A stretch of 64,000 nt of DNA from Myxosarcina sp. GA_180221_E-2-1-MAG-40_15 (lineage in GTDB: Bacteria; Cyanobacteriota; Cyanobacteriia; Cyanobacteriales; Xenococcaceae). Within the stretch, counting starts at the first letter, position 1; every line of letters begins with the position of its first letter. Positions 4,625-15,163 of the stretch are shown piece by piece. The DNA lies in NCBI GenBank assembly GCA_020692205.1, contig JAIMKV010000001.1:26726-90725 (forward strand), in the 5' to 3' direction. The notes under the pieces were generated by a model. The model was not told where the DNA came from, made no database searches, and was given only the letters and a program-made list of their open reading frames with translations. Both the position numbers and the translations under genes were made by a program.

Positions 4625-6868
4625 TTAAACTCCTGTGGCAATTTGAATTACCTGCATCAAGTCGGCAACGCTGCGATGTTCAGCAGGAAGCAGACAAGGA
4701 TATACATTTAACCCTTTGATTTGGTTGGCTGCTTCTGTGGTTCTAGCATCTAAGGTGATTAAAGGTAAAGCAGCTAAATATGCTGATTCTTGAAGCGATC
4801 GCAAATATTGAGCGGGTTCAATAATTTGATAGCCATTTAAGATAATTACGTCTAGTTGCCAAATCCGCGCTAGAGTATGTGCCTGTTCTAGACTATCTGC
4901 TTCAATAATGCGATGTTGACAATCGAATTGTTGTTCGCTGGTGTCTGACCGCGTTAGGCAGGGAACGCTTGACCATTTTTTGAGATCGAAATTTGCACCA
5001 CTGCCATGATTAGCTTGAGGATCGATTACCTCCAGTTCAGGATAGAGGCAAAGAATAGTTAAATTCTGATTAGTTGGCTTGGTTAAGCTTTTGGGATTGA
5101 TATTTGAATTACCAGCTAACTGCTGCTGAGTCTGATCTTGAGGTAACAACAGGGTGAATTGACAGCGATTTGATAAATAAAGGCTAGTTACACTACCGCA
5201 AATGACTTCAGCTAAATATTCAGCAATTACTAAGTTTAAGTCCGAATCTGACCCCAATGAGCTATTTTTTGAAGCTGATGATCCATCGCTTAAGTCGCTA
5301 CTGACCACAATTTCCGTCATTCCCTGTAGACTCTTAATATTGATCTTTAAATTGTCTGGAGATTTGGCAAGCTTAATTGTCGCCAAAACCAAGTGAGAAA
5401 GTATACAGGACAAAAATAACTTGTCGGCGATCGCTATTCCTCCTGATTCAATTTCCAGATCTAATTTTGACCCAAAAGCCTGAGCCTTAAACGAAGATTC
5501 AGCCGATGCCAGTTCGACTTTATTTAAGACCTGTTGATAAAGCTGCCGACAGAGAAACTCTAAATTGATTAACTCAGGCTCTAATAGCTGTTTAGTAGTT
5601 AGGCTTGTCAGTTTTGATAAGTCATCAACAATGCTCATCATTTTTTGTCCGCTGCTTTGGATCAGCTGCACGTATCGAGCTTGTCGCTGATTTAGTTGAC
5701 CTAATTTTTGTTCTCTAAGCAAGCTAGATAAGCCAATAATGCCCGTTAAAGGAGACTTAAGCTCATGACCAATAGTTGCCAGCAATCTATGGTTAAGTGT
5801 TGCCAGACTTTTCGACTCACTAATGCTTGTTGGATTTAAAGGCTTTTGTAAAGCTATTTTAGTGGCGATCACCAACCGATAGGGAAAATTATTGATTTGG
5901 GTTAACCGTTGTTTAGCAACTAGAGGAATCTTCAGGTAATTCCAATCTGATACTTGTTCGATCACTAAGCTTAATTGGGAATGATCTAGCTGTTCTTGCT
6001 GTTCTACCCTAGAGTCTGGATTAGACGCTGTGTAACCTGAATTGAGTATTTTTGGTGATATTTCAGACAAAAACAACTTATGACAATTACTCTTGGCGCG
6101 ATCGCCATTGGCTAAATTTGGTAGTTTTTGGGCTTGGCATTGCTGCTGGCAATCCTGTTGTGCTGAGTATAGCTGCTGTTCCATCCACCAGGTTGCGATC
6201 TTAGTATCGGGTTGTGCTAGCGGTGGCTGTGAATCTTGATTGTCAGCAACTTGTTCTTGCCAACACTGATTCAGCTGAATATCTTTGCCTTCAACAGTTT
6301 CTATTTTTAAGGGCAAAGCAATAAAATCAATTAATTTACTTATGTAGTCTAAGCTAGCTGGTAATTGAGGAGGATTAGTTGAAGATTGTTTAGCTAAATA
6401 TTTGAGTATTTTGTTTCGATCTAACTTGCCCTGTAGCTCTCCTGTAGCATTAACAACTAAGTATTCGTCTTGATGATCAAATAAAGATTCGTAATGTAAG
6501 TAATTTAAAAATTCATCTAGCTGAATATCTGCCTGACAAATCAGCGCGGGTTTGATTATAGAATCAAAGTCTGAAGTCTTTACATAAGGAATGCTGCGTT
6601 GATCAGCTTCACTTGTGGGATGACTAACCAACGCCACTTTGTCTGCCAACCAAGTTTTAGCGATTAAGGAAAGTAAATCTTCAGCATAAATAATTCCCCA
6701 CCCACCATAATTTTGAGGAACTGCCAGTAACTTGCAATTTAAATGTTGAAAAATTTTGAGGAGGCTGCTTAAATCAGTTTCTGGTTGACAGATCGCAATT
6801 GGGTAAACAAAATTTTTTAAATAAGCAGTATTGCTAATAGACATAATTATTAAATTTTTGTTTTCCAA
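4625..6868 (-). CDS. CBS-domain / degenerate histidine kinase with receiver-like C-terminus
   Basis: A 747-residue protein divergent from kaiA. Residues about 15-170 look like a pair of CBS repeats (LVVNATGELQGKLDRNKIL ends the second). A HisKA dimerisation domain follows, with the phospho-acceptor H368 in IGHELKSPLTGIIGLSSLL. The ATPase part (about 455-575) is degenerate: the N-box asparagine is absent (CILSHLVLATIKLA) and no D-x-G-x-G or G-L-G-L motif is recognisable. The last 130 residues form an alpha/beta segment resembling a receiver, but without a clear acidic phosphorylation pocket. It may be a regulatory pseudo-kinase that is phosphorylated by, or scaffolds, another kinase. Two start codons (6868 and 6844) are possible. 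A function in the clock is inferred only from position. Confidence 0.75.
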   Translation of the reverse strand: MENKNLIIMSISNTAYLKNFVYPIAICQPETDLSSLLKIFQHLNCKLLAVPQNYGGWGIIYAEDLLSLIAKTWLADKVALVSHPTSEADQRSIPYVKTSDFDSIIKPALICQADIQLDEFLNYLHYESLFDHQDEYLVVNATGELQGKLDRNKILKYLAKQSSTNPPQLPASLDYISKLIDFIALPLKIETVEGKDIQLNQCWQEQVADNQDSQPPLAQPDTKIATWWMEQQLYSAQQDCQQQCQAQKLPNLANGDRAKSNCHKLFLSEISPKILNSGYTASNPDSRVEQQEQLDHSQLSLVIEQVSDWNYLKIPLVAKQRLTQINNFPYRLVIATKIALQKPLNPTSISESKSLATLNHRLLATIGHELKSPLTGIIGLSSLLREQKLGQLNQRQARYVQLIQSSGQKMMSIVDDLSKLTSLTTKQLLEPELINLEFLCRQLYQQVLNKVELASAESSFKAQAFGSKLDLEIESGGIAIADKLFLSCILSHLVLATIKLAKSPDNLKINIKSLQGMTEIVVSSDLSDGSSASKNSSLGSDSDLNLVIAEYLAEVICGSVTSLYLSNRCQFTLLLPQDQTQQQLAGNSNINPKSLTKPTNQNLTILCLYPELEVIDPQANHGSGANFDLKKWSSVPCLTRSDTSEQQFDCQHRIIEADSLEQAHTLARIWQLDVIILNGYQIIEPAQYLRSLQESAYLAALPLITLDARTTEAANQIKGLNVYPCLLPAEHRSVADLMQVIQIATGV

Positions 6869-7495: not shown

Positions 7496-8509
7496 ATGTC
7501 AGATTACCCAGAATTCAGTTCTGCTAAAGAATTTGCCTCAGCTAAATTATATATCTGCTTGTTTTTGACTCAACAGCAGCTATCTAATTCGGTAACCCAA
7601 CTATTAAACAGCGATCGCTATGAGCTAAAATATCTCAGTCTGGTTCAAGATTTAACTGATTTTATCGTTGAAAACCAAGAACAGATCGATTGTTTGGTTC
7701 TATTTAGAGATGCCCAGTTAGATTCGGTCATGAATCAGCTATGGCAATCAGAGATTTTACTGCCGACGGTAATAGTTGAACTAGAGCAGTTAGTTGACGG
7801 GGCATACAAGCCCTGCCCTTCGAGGCCAGGTACAGCCCCTGACGCACTAGCTGAAGCACCGACAGAATATAGTACCTCTTTACCTAATTTGACTACTATT
7901 CATCCTCTTTATCACCAAGCAGAAATCCGCCTCTATCCAACACAACTAACCGAAATAAATTCATACATCAATTTAGCCATTACCAAGTTCATCAGCTTTG
8001 CTCCAGGTTCAAAAATTGAGCATAATTCCCTTCAAAACGAACTCCAAAAAGAATCGGTAAGAAAGTCTTTAATCGCGCAGCAGCGACGGTTAACCGAAAA
8101 GCTCAAGGAAAGACTCGGTTATTTAGGCATATATTACAAGCGCAATCAAAACTCTTTCTATCGTAATTTATCCTCAGCCAAGCAAAAAGAGTTACATCAT
8201 CAATTAAGTTTGAGGTATCGCCAGATTTTAATTGAATACTTCAATAGTAATTCCCAAACCAATAAATTAATTGACGAATTTGTCGATCTAGCTTTTTTTG
8301 CGGATATTGCTACAGCTCAAATTTTGGAAATTCATATGGAGTTAATTGATGATTTTTCACACCAGCTAAAAATAGAAGGAAGAAATGATGATATTTTACT
8401 TGACTACCGTTTGCCACTAATCGATGTTATTTCGCATTTATGTGAAATGTATCGTCGTTCTATCCCTGGAGAAAAAGACTCTTTGGAATTGCTCTTTGCA
8501 GTAGAATAA
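7496..8509 (+). CDS. kaiA: Circadian clock protein KaiA
   Basis: KaiA stimulates KaiC autophosphorylation by binding the KaiC A-loops. The N-terminal pseudo-receiver domain (about residues 13-150) lacks a phospho-acceptor pocket, as expected. The C-terminal helical dimerisation domain (about 200-330) carries family motifs such as KERLGYLGIYYKRN, then LVDLAFFADI-like and LDYRLPLIDVISHLCEMYRRSIP segments. At 337 residues it is longer than well-studied KaiA proteins (about 280-300). The extra length lies at about residues 100-125, in a GC-rich stretch (7796-7870) between pseudo-receiver strands. The ATG at 7496 begins MSDYPEF with no obvious Shine-Dalgarno site. It is first in kaiABC. Confidence 0.96.
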   Translation: MSDYPEFSSAKEFASAKLYICLFLTQQQLSNSVTQLLNSDRYELKYLSLVQDLTDFIVENQEQIDCLVLFRDAQLDSVMNQLWQSEILLPTVIVELEQLVDGAYKPCPSRPGTAPDALAEAPTEYSTSLPNLTTIHPLYHQAEIRLYPTQLTEINSYINLAITKFISFAPGSKIEHNSLQNELQKESVRKSLIAQQRRLTEKLKERLGYLGIYYKRNQNSFYRNLSSAKQKELHHQLSLRYRQILIEYFNSNSQTNKLIDEFVDLAFFADIATAQILEIHMELIDDFSHQLKIEGRNDDILLDYRLPLIDVISHLCEMYRRSIPGEKDSLELLFAVE

Positions 8510-8615: not shown

Positions 8616-8951
8616 ATGATGGATCAATTTAGAAAAACTTATGTACTTAAATTGTACGTAGCTGGCAATACACCAAATTCAGTTCGAGCCCTCAAAACTC
8701 TAAAAAATATCTTAGAAAAAGATTTTCAAGGAGTTTATGCTCTCAAGGTCATTGATGTGTTAAAGAATCCTCAATTAGCTGAAGAAGATAAGATTTTAGC
8801 GACTCCAACTTTATCTAAAGTGTTACCACCCCCTGTACGAAAAATTATTGGTGATTTAAGCGATCGCGAAAAAGTATTAATTGGCTTAGATCTACTTTAC
8901 GAAGAAATTCGCGAGCAAAGATTGTCCAATCCTACGGACGGTTTACTGTAA
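8616..8951 (+). CDS. kaiB: Circadian clock protein KaiB
   Basis: KaiB is the fold-switching protein that binds phosphorylated KaiC, sequesters KaiA and competes with SasA. The thioredoxin-like core [18 protein letters not shown], the segment [20 protein letters not shown] and the cis-proline motif [12 protein letters not shown] are all intact. The frame is open upstream to a GTG at 8553, but the family starts just before K-T-Y-V-L-K, so the adjacent ATGs at 8616 and 8619 are preferred; this gives about 110 residues, slightly longer than the usual 102-108. It lies 106 bp after kaiA and 76 bp before kaiC. Confidence 0.96.
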
Positions 8952-9027: not shown

Positions 9028-10623
9028 ATGAACGAACCAAATCCTAATAATCAGCCACAGCAGCAAGAATTAAGTACTAAGGGAGTTCGTAAGATCCGCA
9101 CCATGATCGAAGGATTTGATGAAATCACTCATGGTGGTTTACCTATTGGCAGAACTACGTTGGTCAGTGGAACTTCAGGCACGGGAAAAACACTTTTAGC
9201 AGTTCAGTTTCTTTATCGAGGAATTGAATTTTTTAATTGTCCTGGGATATTTGTGACTTTTGAAGAATCTCCCAAAGATATTATTGAAAACGCCTATAGT
9301 TTTGGCTGGGATTTGCAAGACTTAATTGATCGTGGCAAGCTTTTTATCTTAGATGCATCCCCCGATCCTGAAGGGCAAGAAGTAGTTGGTAACTTCGATT
9401 TATCCGCGTTAATCGAGCGCATTCACTATGCAATTCGTAAGTACAAGGCAAAACTGGTTTCGATTGACTCAGTAACAGCAGTCTTTCAACAGTACGACGC
9501 GGCTTCGGTGGTGAGGCGAGAAATTTTTCGTTTAGTTGCACGTCTTAAACAATTAGAAGTCACTTCAATTTTGACGACTGAAAGAGTTGAAGAATACGGT
9601 AAGATCGCCCGATTCGGCGTTGAAGAATTTGTTTCCGATAATGTAATTGTTATTCGTAATGTTTTAGAAGGAGAGCGTCGTCGCCGTACCATCGAAATTC
9701 TCAAGCTTAGGGGAACAACCCACATGAAAGGAGAGTATCCTTTCACTATTACTAATGATGGGATTAATATTTTTCCCTTGGGAGCGATGCGCCTTACCCA
9801 GCGTTCTTCTAATGTTCGGCGCTCTTCTGGGGTTAAAACCCTGGATAAACTATGTGGAGGAGGTTTTTTCAAAGATTCGATTATTTTGGCTACCGGTGCC
9901 ACAGGAACTGGCAAAACTTTACTAGTCAGTAAGTTTCTGGAAGAAGGTTGCCGTCAGGGAGAAAGATCAGTGCTGTTTGCCTATGAAGAATCTAGAGCGC
10001 AGCTATCTCGCAATGCCTCTTCTTGGGGCGTGGACTTTGAAGAAATGGAGCGCCAGGGTTTACTCAAGCTGCTCTGTTGCTATCCAGAATCAGCAGGTTT
10101 AGAAGATCATTTACAAATGATTAAGTCTGAGATTACTGATTTCAAGCCTTCTCGCATTGCGATCGATTCCCTGTCTGCTTTAGCCAGAGGAGTTACTAAC
10201 AATGCCTTTCGTCAGTTTGTGATCGGAGTCACGGGTTATGCCAAACAAGAAGAAATCACGGGTTTCTTTACCAACACTACCGATCAATTTTTAGGAGCTA
10301 ACTCAATTACGGAATCTCATATTTCTACCATTACTGACACCATTATTTTGCTACAGTATGTTGAAATTCGGGGCGAGATGTCTCGGGCGATGAACGTATT
10401 TAAAATGCGTGGTTCGTGGCACGATAAAGGAATCCGCGAGTATGTGATTAGCTCTGACGCGCCAGAAATTCCCTTAATCAAAGAATCTTTTCGCAATTAT
10501 GAGGGAATTATTAGCGGTTCTCCGTCTCGCGTTGCTCTCAACGAAAAAAGCGAGCTATCTCGAATTGCCAGAAACGTGAAAGATCTCAGCGTCGATGGGA
10601 TAAAAGACGAAGATAGGCGATGA
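9028..10623 (+). CDS. kaiC: Circadian clock ATPase/autokinase KaiC
   Basis: KaiC is the hexameric oscillator core; CI has slow ATPase activity and CII has autokinase/autophosphatase activity. The 531-residue protein has both RecA-like repeats: P-loop GTSGTGKT at residues 48-55 with catalytic E79-E80, and P-loop GATGTGKT at 290-297. The dual phosphosites are conserved as S433 and T434 in SHISTITDT (S431/T432 in S. elongatus numbering), and the transient site is T428. The A-loop and C-terminal tail that KaiA binds are present. The stop overlaps the next ATG (ATGA at 10620), so the downstream flavoprotein gene is translationally coupled. Confidence 0.98.
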   Translation: MNEPNPNNQPQQQELSTKGVRKIRTMIEGFDEITHGGLPIGRTTLVSGTSGTGKTLLAVQFLYRGIEFFNCPGIFVTFEESPKDIIENAYSFGWDLQDLIDRGKLFILDASPDPEGQEVVGNFDLSALIERIHYAIRKYKAKLVSIDSVTAVFQQYDAASVVRREIFRLVARLKQLEVTSILTTERVEEYGKIARFGVEEFVSDNVIVIRNVLEGERRRRTIEILKLRGTTHMKGEYPFTITNDGINIFPLGAMRLTQRSSNVRRSSGVKTLDKLCGGGFFKDSIILATGATGTGKTLLVSKFLEEGCRQGERSVLFAYEESRAQLSRNASSWGVDFEEMERQGLLKLLCCYPESAGLEDHLQMIKSEITDFKPSRIAIDSLSALARGVTNNAFRQFVIGVTGYAKQEEITGFFTNTTDQFLGANSITESHISTITDTIILLQYVEIRGEMSRAMNVFKMRGSWHDKGIREYVISSDAPEIPLIKESFRNYEGIISGSPSRVALNEKSELSRIARNVKDLSVDGIKDEDRR

Positions 10624-11687
10624 ATAGTGAGATTGAGCAAATTGAGTCTTTTTTACAAGCTCAGATTGCTCCTTTAGCCAACAAAATAGATCGTCAGCCT
10701 CAAGTTTTAAAGTTAGCCTTGCAAAAAATCGGCGATCGCTCTTGGTTGGCTTTAAAAGCTGCTCCCGAATTGGGCGGAACAGGTTTGAGCGACGCAGACT
10801 ATCTGAGTTTACAAATCAGGATGGCAAGAGCTTCTGGAGCTTTGACTTTTTTGCAAACCCAACATCAGAGTGCCGTAGCTAAGCTCGCACAAAGCCAAAA
10901 TAAGTCTTTGCAGCAAGAATTTTTTCCTGATGTAGCACAAGGCAAGGCTTTAATCGGGGTTGGGTTTTCTCATTTGCGCCGTCGCGGGGTGCCAATGATG
11001 CAGGCAACCCAAACGCCAGGGGGATATCTTTTAACCGGAAAAGTTCCCTGGATTACTGGCTATGGTTTTTTTACCCAGTTTGTTTTAGGGGCAACCTTGC
11101 CCGATGGTAGAGAGCTTTATGGCATGCTGCCGCTGCAAAATCAATCACCAGAATTGGGAGGCGAAATAAAGCTCAGCAAACCGATGGAATTGATTGCCAT
11201 GTCTGCTACTAATACCGTTAGTGCAGAAATCAATCAGTGGTTTTTGACTAGCGATCGCCTAGTAGCCATCAGCCCAGCAGGAGCAATTCACGCTCTTAGT
11301 CGTCGAAACATCCTCAATCATGGTTTTTTCGCTTTAGGCTGTGCTTACGCGGGGCTAGATATTCTTGAGGCTATAGCTGCAAAAAAACAGTTAGAGTTTT
11401 TGCAAGAATCTTGGCAATCTCTCCATGGAGAGGTAATGCAACAAGAACATAAGGCGATCGCTGCTTTATTAAACAACCATTATCCCCAACAATTACAGCT
11501 TCGTGCTGCGATGATTAATTTAGCTCAACGCTGTAGTTTAGCTGCGGTAATTGCCTCTGGTGGCGCAGCAAACTATCTCAACTCCAGTGCAGGACGAATT
11601 TATCGCGAAGCTTTACTATTTAGTGTTTCTGGACAAACTATTGACGTAATTAAAGCTAGTTTAAACAACTTATTGCGATCGGGCTGA
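10620..11687 (+). CDS. Acyl-CoA dehydrogenase-like flavoprotein coupled to kaiC
   Basis: A 355-residue protein with the acyl-CoA dehydrogenase fold: an N-terminal helical domain with the ELGGTGLSDADYLSL segment, a middle beta domain containing GYLLTGKVPWITGYGFFTQFVLGA (positions 11026-11097), and a C-terminal helical bundle. The place where dehydrogenases carry the catalytic glutamate (Y-E-G-T type) reads FSVSGQTIDV here, so the normal base appears to be missing. It may be a DszC-like or otherwise repurposed flavin enzyme; substrate and reaction are unknown. Its ATG overlaps the kaiC TGA by 4 bases, making it the fourth gene of the kai operon. Identity at superfamily level is firm. Confidence 0.82.
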   Translation: MNSEIEQIESFLQAQIAPLANKIDRQPQVLKLALQKIGDRSWLALKAAPELGGTGLSDADYLSLQIRMARASGALTFLQTQHQSAVAKLAQSQNKSLQQEFFPDVAQGKALIGVGFSHLRRRGVPMMQATQTPGGYLLTGKVPWITGYGFFTQFVLGATLPDGRELYGMLPLQNQSPELGGEIKLSKPMELIAMSATNTVSAEINQWFLTSDRLVAISPAGAIHALSRRNILNHGFFALGCAYAGLDILEAIAAKKQLEFLQESWQSLHGEVMQQEHKAIAALLNNHYPQQLQLRAAMINLAQRCSLAAVIASGGAANYLNSSAGRIYREALLFSVSGQTIDVIKASLNNLLRSG

Positions 11688-11700
11688 GAATAACGAAGAC

Positions 11701-11728
11701 AAGCTGGGCGGGTTTTCCCACCCAGCTT
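11701..11728. terminator. Strong inverted repeat between convergent genes
   Basis: AAGCTGGGCGGG (11701-11712), a TTTT loop, then CCCACCCAGCTT (11717-11728), paired throughout except one C/A mismatch. It sits just behind the kai-operon flavoprotein gene and in front of the converging GH57 stop. No T tract follows on either strand, so termination is inferred from stem stability and position. A second short palindrome (CAGCTTTTAAGCTG, 11817-11830) lies next to the GH57 stop. Confidence 0.6.
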
Positions 11729-11833
11729 GAGATGTCACTGCTGTTGCGACGGGGAACCCATCGGTATAGCAAGCCCCGCCGCCCATACGCAGATCTTCGC
11801 ATTGTAGTAAAGTAATCAGCTTTTAAGCTGCTG

Positions 11834-13984: not shown

Positions 13985-15163
13985 GTGTTGCAATCCAATA
14001 AGCAATACCCTGATTACGACCAAAGTAATTCTGAGGAACTATTGCTTCAACTATTATTGTTTGTAGATAAACGCTCTTCTTCAGATGAGCAAATTCAAGA
14101 AATTCAGGCTTACTTAGAGAGTTTGCAATCTGATTACTCTTTTAAGCTAAATGTGGTTGAGATCGAAAAACAACCTCACTTAGTAGAGTTTCTGAAGCTG
14201 GTTGCGACTCCTGCTTTGGTTAAAATAGCTCCAGCACCCCGACAGACTTTAGCAGGAAGCAATTTAATTAAGCAGTTAGAAAAATGGTGGCCTAAATGGA
14301 AGACTTCTCAAGCAGATTTAGCAGCAAGCGAAAATGAACCTAATACGCTAGAGAAATCAAACTACCTCGTAGCCCAGCAGAGTTATTCTGTTAAAGATAT
14401 TGAACTAGCCGACGAAATATTTAGCCTGAAGCGAGAAAAAGAAGAACTGGCTGCACAGCTAAAGTTTAAAGATCAGATTCTGGCTATGTTAGCCCACGAC
14501 CTGCGGACACCTCTGACAGCAGCTTCAATGGCAGTAGAAACTATTGAACTATCAGAGCAAAATGATCGCTTAGAAGCGAACAAGCTAAAAACTCTCAAAC
14601 AAAGGCTTTTTCGACAAGCCAAAAATCAATTCGGCATCATGAATGGCATGATTAGCGAACTATTACAAAATTCTCAGAGTGTGAATGCTAACTTAGCCGT
14701 TAAGCCTAGATCGCTAGATTTACCAACCTTATTCCAGGAAGTAATTAGTCAGTTTGATGCCAGGCTAAAGCAGAAACTGATGAATTTTCAACAAGATATT
14801 CCTCGAGATCTGCCTCAAGTTTATGCTGACGAAGAGTTAATTCGTCAGTTAGTGGGCAACCTGCTTGATAATGCCATCAAATACACTCCCAAGCAAGGTA
14901 AAATTTCGTTATCTGCATTACACCGTACCAATCAGAAAGTTCAGGTCAGTATTTGTGATACAGGACCAGGGATTCCCCCAGAGAAAAGAGAACGAATCTT
15001 TGAAGATAGCTTCCGTCTGAAGCGCGATCGCGACTCCGAAGGCTATGGATTAGGGTTAGCAATGTGTTATCAAATAGTTTGCGCCCATTACGGTCAAATT
15101 TGGGTGGAAAGCTCTCCTGAATCAGGTAGCTGTTTTCAATTCACTTTGTTGGTCTACAAGTAA
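13985..15163 (+). CDS. sasA: Clock output histidine kinase SasA
   Basis: SasA senses KaiC through an N-terminal KaiB-like thioredoxin domain and phosphorylates the transcription factor RpaA. The 392-residue protein has this domain at about residues 18-108 (LQLLLFVDKRSSSDEQIQEI, with a VATPALVKIAP cis-proline segment), a coiled region, HisKA with phospho-acceptor H171 in LAHDLRTPLTAAS, and an intact ATPase domain with N-box LLDNAIKYTP, G1 motif CDTGPGIPPE and G2 motif GYGLGLAMC. The start is GTG at 13985, needed to keep the KaiB-like domain complete. It lies about 3.4 kb from the kaiC stop, with two genes between. A good terminator follows. Confidence 0.95.
   Translation: MLQSNKQYPDYDQSNSEELLLQLLLFVDKRSSSDEQIQEIQAYLESLQSDYSFKLNVVEIEKQPHLVEFLKLVATPALVKIAPAPRQTLAGSNLIKQLEKWWPKWKTSQADLAASENEPNTLEKSNYLVAQQSYSVKDIELADEIFSLKREKEELAAQLKFKDQILAMLAHDLRTPLTAASMAVETIELSEQNDRLEANKLKTLKQRLFRQAKNQFGIMNGMISELLQNSQSVNANLAVKPRSLDLPTLFQEVISQFDARLKQKLMNFQQDIPRDLPQVYADEELIRQLVGNLLDNAIKYTPKQGKISLSALHRTNQKVQVSICDTGPGIPPEKRERIFEDSFRLKRDRDSEGYGLGLAMCYQIVCAHYGQIWVESSPESGSCFQFTLLVYK

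Follow-up and report, generated by a model that had tools for sequence, protein, structure and literature searches.

The locus considered here raises the question of what a gene for a relative of the acyl-CoA dehydrogenases (ACADs) is doing directly behind kaiC. It lies in a stretch of 64,000 nucleotides from Myxosarcina sp. GA_180221_E-2-1-MAG-40_15 (assembly GCA_020692205.1, contig JAIMKV010000001.1, positions 26,726 to 90,725), which is referred to as the window and from whose first letter positions are counted; the genome of the window (131 contigs, 99.99% complete) is G000. A sequence-only reading had described the gene as the fourth of the kai operon and had proposed that a flavin protein expressed with the oscillator could be a redox input or metabolic partner of the clock. 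The answer towards which we lean slightly is that an ACAD relative was captured by the kai operon, is co-transcribed and translationally coupled with kaiABC, and provides a clock-timed metabolic output. The features on which the argument turns are these:

7496 to 8509, plus strand: kaiA (PF07688 and PF21714)
8616 to 8951, plus strand: kaiB (Pfam and TIGR02654 above cut-off; start taken at the Met pair 8616/8619, the mechanical open reading frame running from 8553)
9028 to 10623, plus strand: kaiC (Pfam and TIGR02655 above cut-off; stop codon TGA at 10621-10623)
10620 to 11687, plus strand: gene for the ACAD-fold protein of 355 amino acids (PF02771)
10620 to 10623, plus strand: ATGA, the start codon of the ACAD-like gene overlapping the kaiC stop (direct reading)
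11631 to 11639, plus strand: codons Ser337-Gly338-Gln339, at the place of the ACAD catalytic glutamate (Gly338; alignment to 2dvl and 1ivh)
11700 to 11729, no strand assigned: 13-pair hairpin, 13 nt past the ACAD stop (terminator-like site search)

The TGA of kaiC ends at 10623 and the next ATG lies at 10620, so that ATGA is common to both genes; the overlap proposed earlier is confirmed by direct reading, and there is no room for a promoter between the two. Because the gene overlaps or touches the end of kaiC, here and in the relatives described below, the protein is likely to be made together with the clock proteins. As in the canonical cluster, kaiA, kaiB and kaiC follow one another on one strand, the difference here being the fourth, coupled gene. 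Its designation as the fourth gene stands in the sense of a fourth co-directional gene of the kaiABC cluster, while the operon itself is something that we infer: the gene would likely share a transcript with kaiABC and be coupled at translation, and the protein, as a metabolic output under clock timing, would then vary rhythmically in amount. Capture by the kai operon would make such an output probable and, if co-transcription holds, gene order alone would tie the product to the level of KaiC, a simple way of timing a metabolic enzyme. The hairpin behind the gene carries its T-rich tail on the minus strand and so looks like the end of the convergent gene; on the plus strand it has no T run. 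Terminator-like sites in the region numbered eight, against 5.8 expected in shuffles.

When relatives were surveyed, the gene was not absent from beside kaiC in all of them. Nine genomes, that of the window and eight further ones (G000, G406, G405, G400, G398, G408, G407, G404 and G395), have it immediately after kaiC and in the same orientation; these are nine of the 26 kaiC-bearing genomes of the window's taxonomic family (Xenococcaceae). The gene itself is present in 18 of the 27 genomes of this family, and the nine carriers outside the linked group showed no kaiC next to the gene. By our reading of eight junctions the spacing runs from -11 to +3 nt, with overlaps of 4 nt (G000) and 11 nt (G405 and G400, depending on the start codon chosen), gaps of 3 nt (G406, G398, G408 and G404) and no gap in G395. 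Some of these loci are incomplete: G404 has the gene in two pieces on separate contigs, the second piece containing a TAG; the contig of G408 stops inside the gene; and in G407 the adjoining kaiC end is an 85-residue fragment at a contig end. Protein identity among the linked genomes drops to 57% with the coupling kept. The linked genomes fall into one KaiC clade (support 99/96) together with five genomes of the genus that are without the gene, G395 branching first, and in the gene tree the seven usable linked sequences need one change (short search, support 94). Judged from these sequences, the linkage is lineage-specific and of one origin.

The gene beyond the ACAD-like gene differs in all seven contigs compared, so that the pair has stayed together while the flank changed; G406 has the same next gene as the split locus of G404. 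By a simple counting method, with high dS, the ratio dN/dS of the ACAD-like gene against G000 was 0.16-0.17 in the five pairs with usable dS, and that of KaiC 0.02-0.03. We read the window gene, from a dN/dS of about 0.17, as a functional enzyme under purifying selection, and this ratio taken with the single-clade linkage indicates that the protein is under selection and the linkage old. The five genomes without the gene (G399, G401, G402, G403 and G409, out of 13 in the genus) have kaiA, kaiB and kaiC, and a tblastn search at E 10 for a decayed copy behind their kaiC gave chance-level pieces only. The gene is therefore not essential to the clock. On our reading it would have been captured once by the kai operon, and the oscillator would not need it.

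The alternative that survives best, possible although we think it doubtful, is that nothing functional lies behind the linkage: the gene would have been inserted behind kaiC, perhaps with its own promoter, and kept there by chance and by an overlap that is hard to break. How tightly the gene packs elsewhere bears directly on this. Flanks were obtained for 39 of the 51 other carriers in an even, phylum-wide sample of 386 genomes, and these are the genome loci outside the window's family. A contig scan with a single sequence as query gave no matches; with an alignment as query the best 80 of 293 relatives were kept as named loci, all of which were used. Sixteen of these, which in our judgement share their contigs with genome loci, were excluded from the packing count, leaving 64 further named loci (65 with the window counted in). 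A same-strand neighbour within about 30 nt was found at 15/39 genome loci and at 10/64 further named loci, and the neighbours are mostly of unrelated kinds. Tight coupling alone is thus weak evidence of shared function, since equally tight packing with unrelated genes occurs elsewhere, and genomes of the genus lose the gene freely. Against chance retention, the kaiC side stays in all seven contigs while the gene beyond changes, and the junction leaves no space for a separate promoter, promoter-like sites in the region numbering 15 against 14.4 expected in shuffles.

The family is largely cyanobacterial. Some match at E 0.001 was found in 94 of the 386 genomes, and a close family member (defined by a best E of 5e-59 or lower; our tally) in 52; a close KaiC is present in 182. 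The contig scan returned names that include Pleurocapsa, Hyella, Xenococcus, Moorena, Microcystis, Coleofasciculus, Trichodesmium, Scytonema and Calothrix, and Stanieria cyanosphaera is also named among the carriers. Two contigs labelled Armatimonadetes (L184 and L213) hold members 44-45% identical, which may reflect transfer or mis-binned cyanobacterial DNA. In G145 and G181 (genus g31) the matches are fragmentary with many stop codons and represent decaying gene copies. At L088 and L089 about 20 nt are shared between the member and a gene behind it that resembles, by eye, a 3-methyladenine DNA glycosylase, with a DnaJ-like gene directly upstream.

This distribution weighs on a second alternative, that the target of the protein is the clock itself: it might be a flavin-based sensor of redox state or of metabolites that touches KaiC, the coupling fixing its amount to that of KaiC. 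In its favour are the coupling kept in nine genomes at identities down to 57%, the missing standard catalytic base (see below) and a second closeness to kaiC in two genomes of the Synechococcus elongatus type, where a divergent member lies tail-to-tail with kaiC:

L090 5457-6464 (G036): family member tail-to-tail with kaiC
L222 about 5259-6248 (G412): family member tail-to-tail with kaiC

The stop codons of the member and kaiC are touching or about 20 nt apart, and the members are 40% (G036) and 37% (G412) identical to the window's protein. Across its 335 residues the protein of G036 has the same sequence as one named S. elongatus PCC 11801, and a 72% relative also bears the name S. elongatus. 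That the orientation is opposite favours a separate event. By a rough estimate from about 50 loci, two flanks and about 4500 genes, this second closeness has a chance of about 0.02 of arising by itself, which is no more than suggestive. In PCC 7942 we take kaiC to be gene 1216, and gene 1215 would then presumably be the family member. The gene after the member in G036 and G412 looks by eye like a glutathione peroxidase, and Synpcc7942_1214 is given as a glutathione peroxidase in one report (PMC12016511). The presence of the same family beside kaiC in S. elongatus-type genomes makes an effect on the clock testable in a standard laboratory organism. Against an action on the clock, the gene has been lost in 5/13 genomes of the genus that have kaiC, G036 is the only one of the 39 loci outside the family with kaiC beside the gene, close KaiC proteins are far more widespread (182 genomes) than family members (52), and equally tight packing with unrelated genes is seen elsewhere. 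We regard this alternative as improbable. On the same counts (1/39 outside loci, 5/13 genus genomes, the packing) the proposal that the clock takes redox input from the protein or has it as a partner did not find support, and a redox-input role specifically is neither supported nor excluded. A bolder version, to which we give slightly less credence again, would have a base-less ACAD family recruited to the clock at least twice, as a translationally coupled fourth kai gene in the Pleurocapsa-like clade and as a convergent partner of kaiC in S. elongatus, where it would sense redox state through its flavin or regulate the clock while bound to KaiC, overlooked by clock genetics.

What the protein might do can be approached through its fold. 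The resemblance to acyl-CoA dehydrogenases suggested earlier is borne out by a match of the open reading frame to PF02771 (Acyl-CoA_dh_N) at E 2.3e-10, above cut-off; other Pfam models, including those for the ACAD middle and C-terminal domains, were not reported for it at E 0.1, PF00441 appears below cut-off in one fused relative, and no NCBIfam model reached its cut-off (best 32.1 bits against 600). The predicted structure is a full three-domain ACAD fold over the whole length (pLDDT 93.7). Among the matches listed in the structure comparison, which excludes nothing, no clock-related or other fold ranked above the ACADs. Binding of FAD would likely follow from the predicted fold, and it is from this that the label flavin protein derives. 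A search of the window's genome at E 0.001 gave a single match, the gene itself.

The C-terminal motif FSVSGQT is present, and Gly338 aligns with the glutamate of Y-E-G-T in the Thermus ACAD 2dvl. Two sets of sequences were used for residue columns, an alignment of 54 and a second set of 72, both including the window's protein; position 338 is Gly in 52, Ala in two and Glu in none of the first, and Gly in 71 and Ala in one of the second. The loss of the usual catalytic glutamate environment noticed from the sequence is therefore upheld by both the alignment to 2dvl and the column counts. The alternative catalytic glutamate of isovaleryl-CoA dehydrogenase (IVD) corresponds to residue 228 or 229, depending on the alignment; these residues are acidic in 1/54 and 2/54 members respectively, and the alternative acid is thus not conserved. 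By alignment, then, the catalytic glutamate appears to be absent at both known positions, that of medium-chain acyl-CoA dehydrogenase (MCAD) and that of IVD. Residues H82, R120, W144, G147, R295, G315, R326 and E330 are invariant, and the [TS]EPxGS loop is absent in 54/54 members. Whole-sequence pattern counts (R..FG in 6/54, EG[TS] in 4/54) lie outside the alignment and were given no weight. Electron-transfer flavoprotein (ETF; PF01012) was sought in 41 of the 69 carrier genomes then known and in 14 controls, and was found in 0/41 and 10/14 respectively. That a standard acyl-CoA dehydrogenase is present here, its glutamate merely shifted, is accordingly very improbable. The conserved acids were searched for such a glutamate, and by alignment Glu330 appears to match a structural Asp in the RDAK stretch of IVD and not the active-site acid of that enzyme; residues 228/229 are rarely acidic, and the 41 carriers have no ETF.

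Because the catalytic glutamate is missing and the 41 carriers searched have no ETF, standard acyl-CoA dehydrogenation with ETF is unlikely, in agreement with the earlier suggestion that this is not a standard beta-oxidation enzyme; a role in beta-oxidation was rejected on the loss of both catalytic acids together with the failure to find ETF. IVD (1ivh, 8sgr) and 2dvl are only about 16% identical to the window's protein and differ from its family in the Gly or Ala at the catalytic position, the missing loop and the lack of ETF in carriers. The ACAD fold is also common to flavin monooxygenases such as DszC (3x0x) and AidB-like proteins. DszC gave a partial profile match only (2.2e-6, profile positions 38-224); some sources label family members 'AidB-like', and no AidB chain was among the matches listed (60 of 69). 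The chemistry would probably be the flavin-dependent oxidation of a small metabolite, with electrons not passed to ETF. The family itself is a branch of the ACADs that has lost its catalytic base and is yet kept under selection.

Some indication comes from partner genes, counted over the 39 genome loci and the 80 named loci, which partly repeat them (L091 was dropped for want of a usable member). A cyclase-type hydrolase (PF04199) is fused behind or adjacent at 10/39 genome loci and 12/80 named loci, and MazG-type domains, either fused in front or lying next to the gene, occur at 5/39 and 6/80. Pfam support for the latter comes from one probe (1.4e-4), which the others match by blastp; one fused MazG half has no Pfam match at 0.01. 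On a tree of 54 rows the cyclase label needs three changes and the MazG label two. These fusions and neighbours point to small-molecule metabolism but are no direct evidence for the window's clade, in which neither neighbour occurs. The fused proteins of other cyanobacteria carry an ACAD half from this family, with 43-47% identity to the window's protein, and in those lineages the hydrolase would act in the same pathway; the window's genome, in contrast, has no PF04199 cyclase at E 1e-30. A close PF04199 relative is present in 48/386 genomes and in 16/52 carriers, against about 6.5 expected (our count from two lists), and an obligatory partnership is ruled out by these 16/52 and by its absence from the window's genome. 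The PF04199 partner at L077 (6511-7242) and in the fused relatives has the motif H-S-[AG]-T-H-x-N-A-P in place of the H-x-G-T-H-x-D-x-P-x-H of its relatives, and its metal site may be altered.

Three points weigh against a clock-timed metabolic enzyme. The absent catalytic glutamate could be a sign that the protein does not work as an enzyme in any way; with no close PF04199 cyclase in the window's genome, the pathway guessed from the fusions may not apply there; and linkage kept in nine genomes, with the separate closeness in S. elongatus-type genomes, could mean a real role in the clock. In titles and abstract openings of the open-licence literature no description of this gene was found. The only link in print between an ACAD and a rhythm that we found is the rhythmic transcription of aidB in Rhodobacter sphaeroides, as described in PMC6627678.

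Three further genes of the same genome deserve mention. Divergently upstream of kaiA, a gene at 4625-6868 (minus strand) encodes a 747-residue protein with a HisKA domain and no HATPase match at E 0.1, and seven other kai loci of the clade have a relative in the corresponding position. A second KaiC-like protein, 48% identical, is encoded at G000:C2:54475-55944. Two genes past the kai cluster, behind a convergent gene, lies a KaiB-domain histidine kinase at 13985-15163 that is SasA-like (NF006800 above cut-off).
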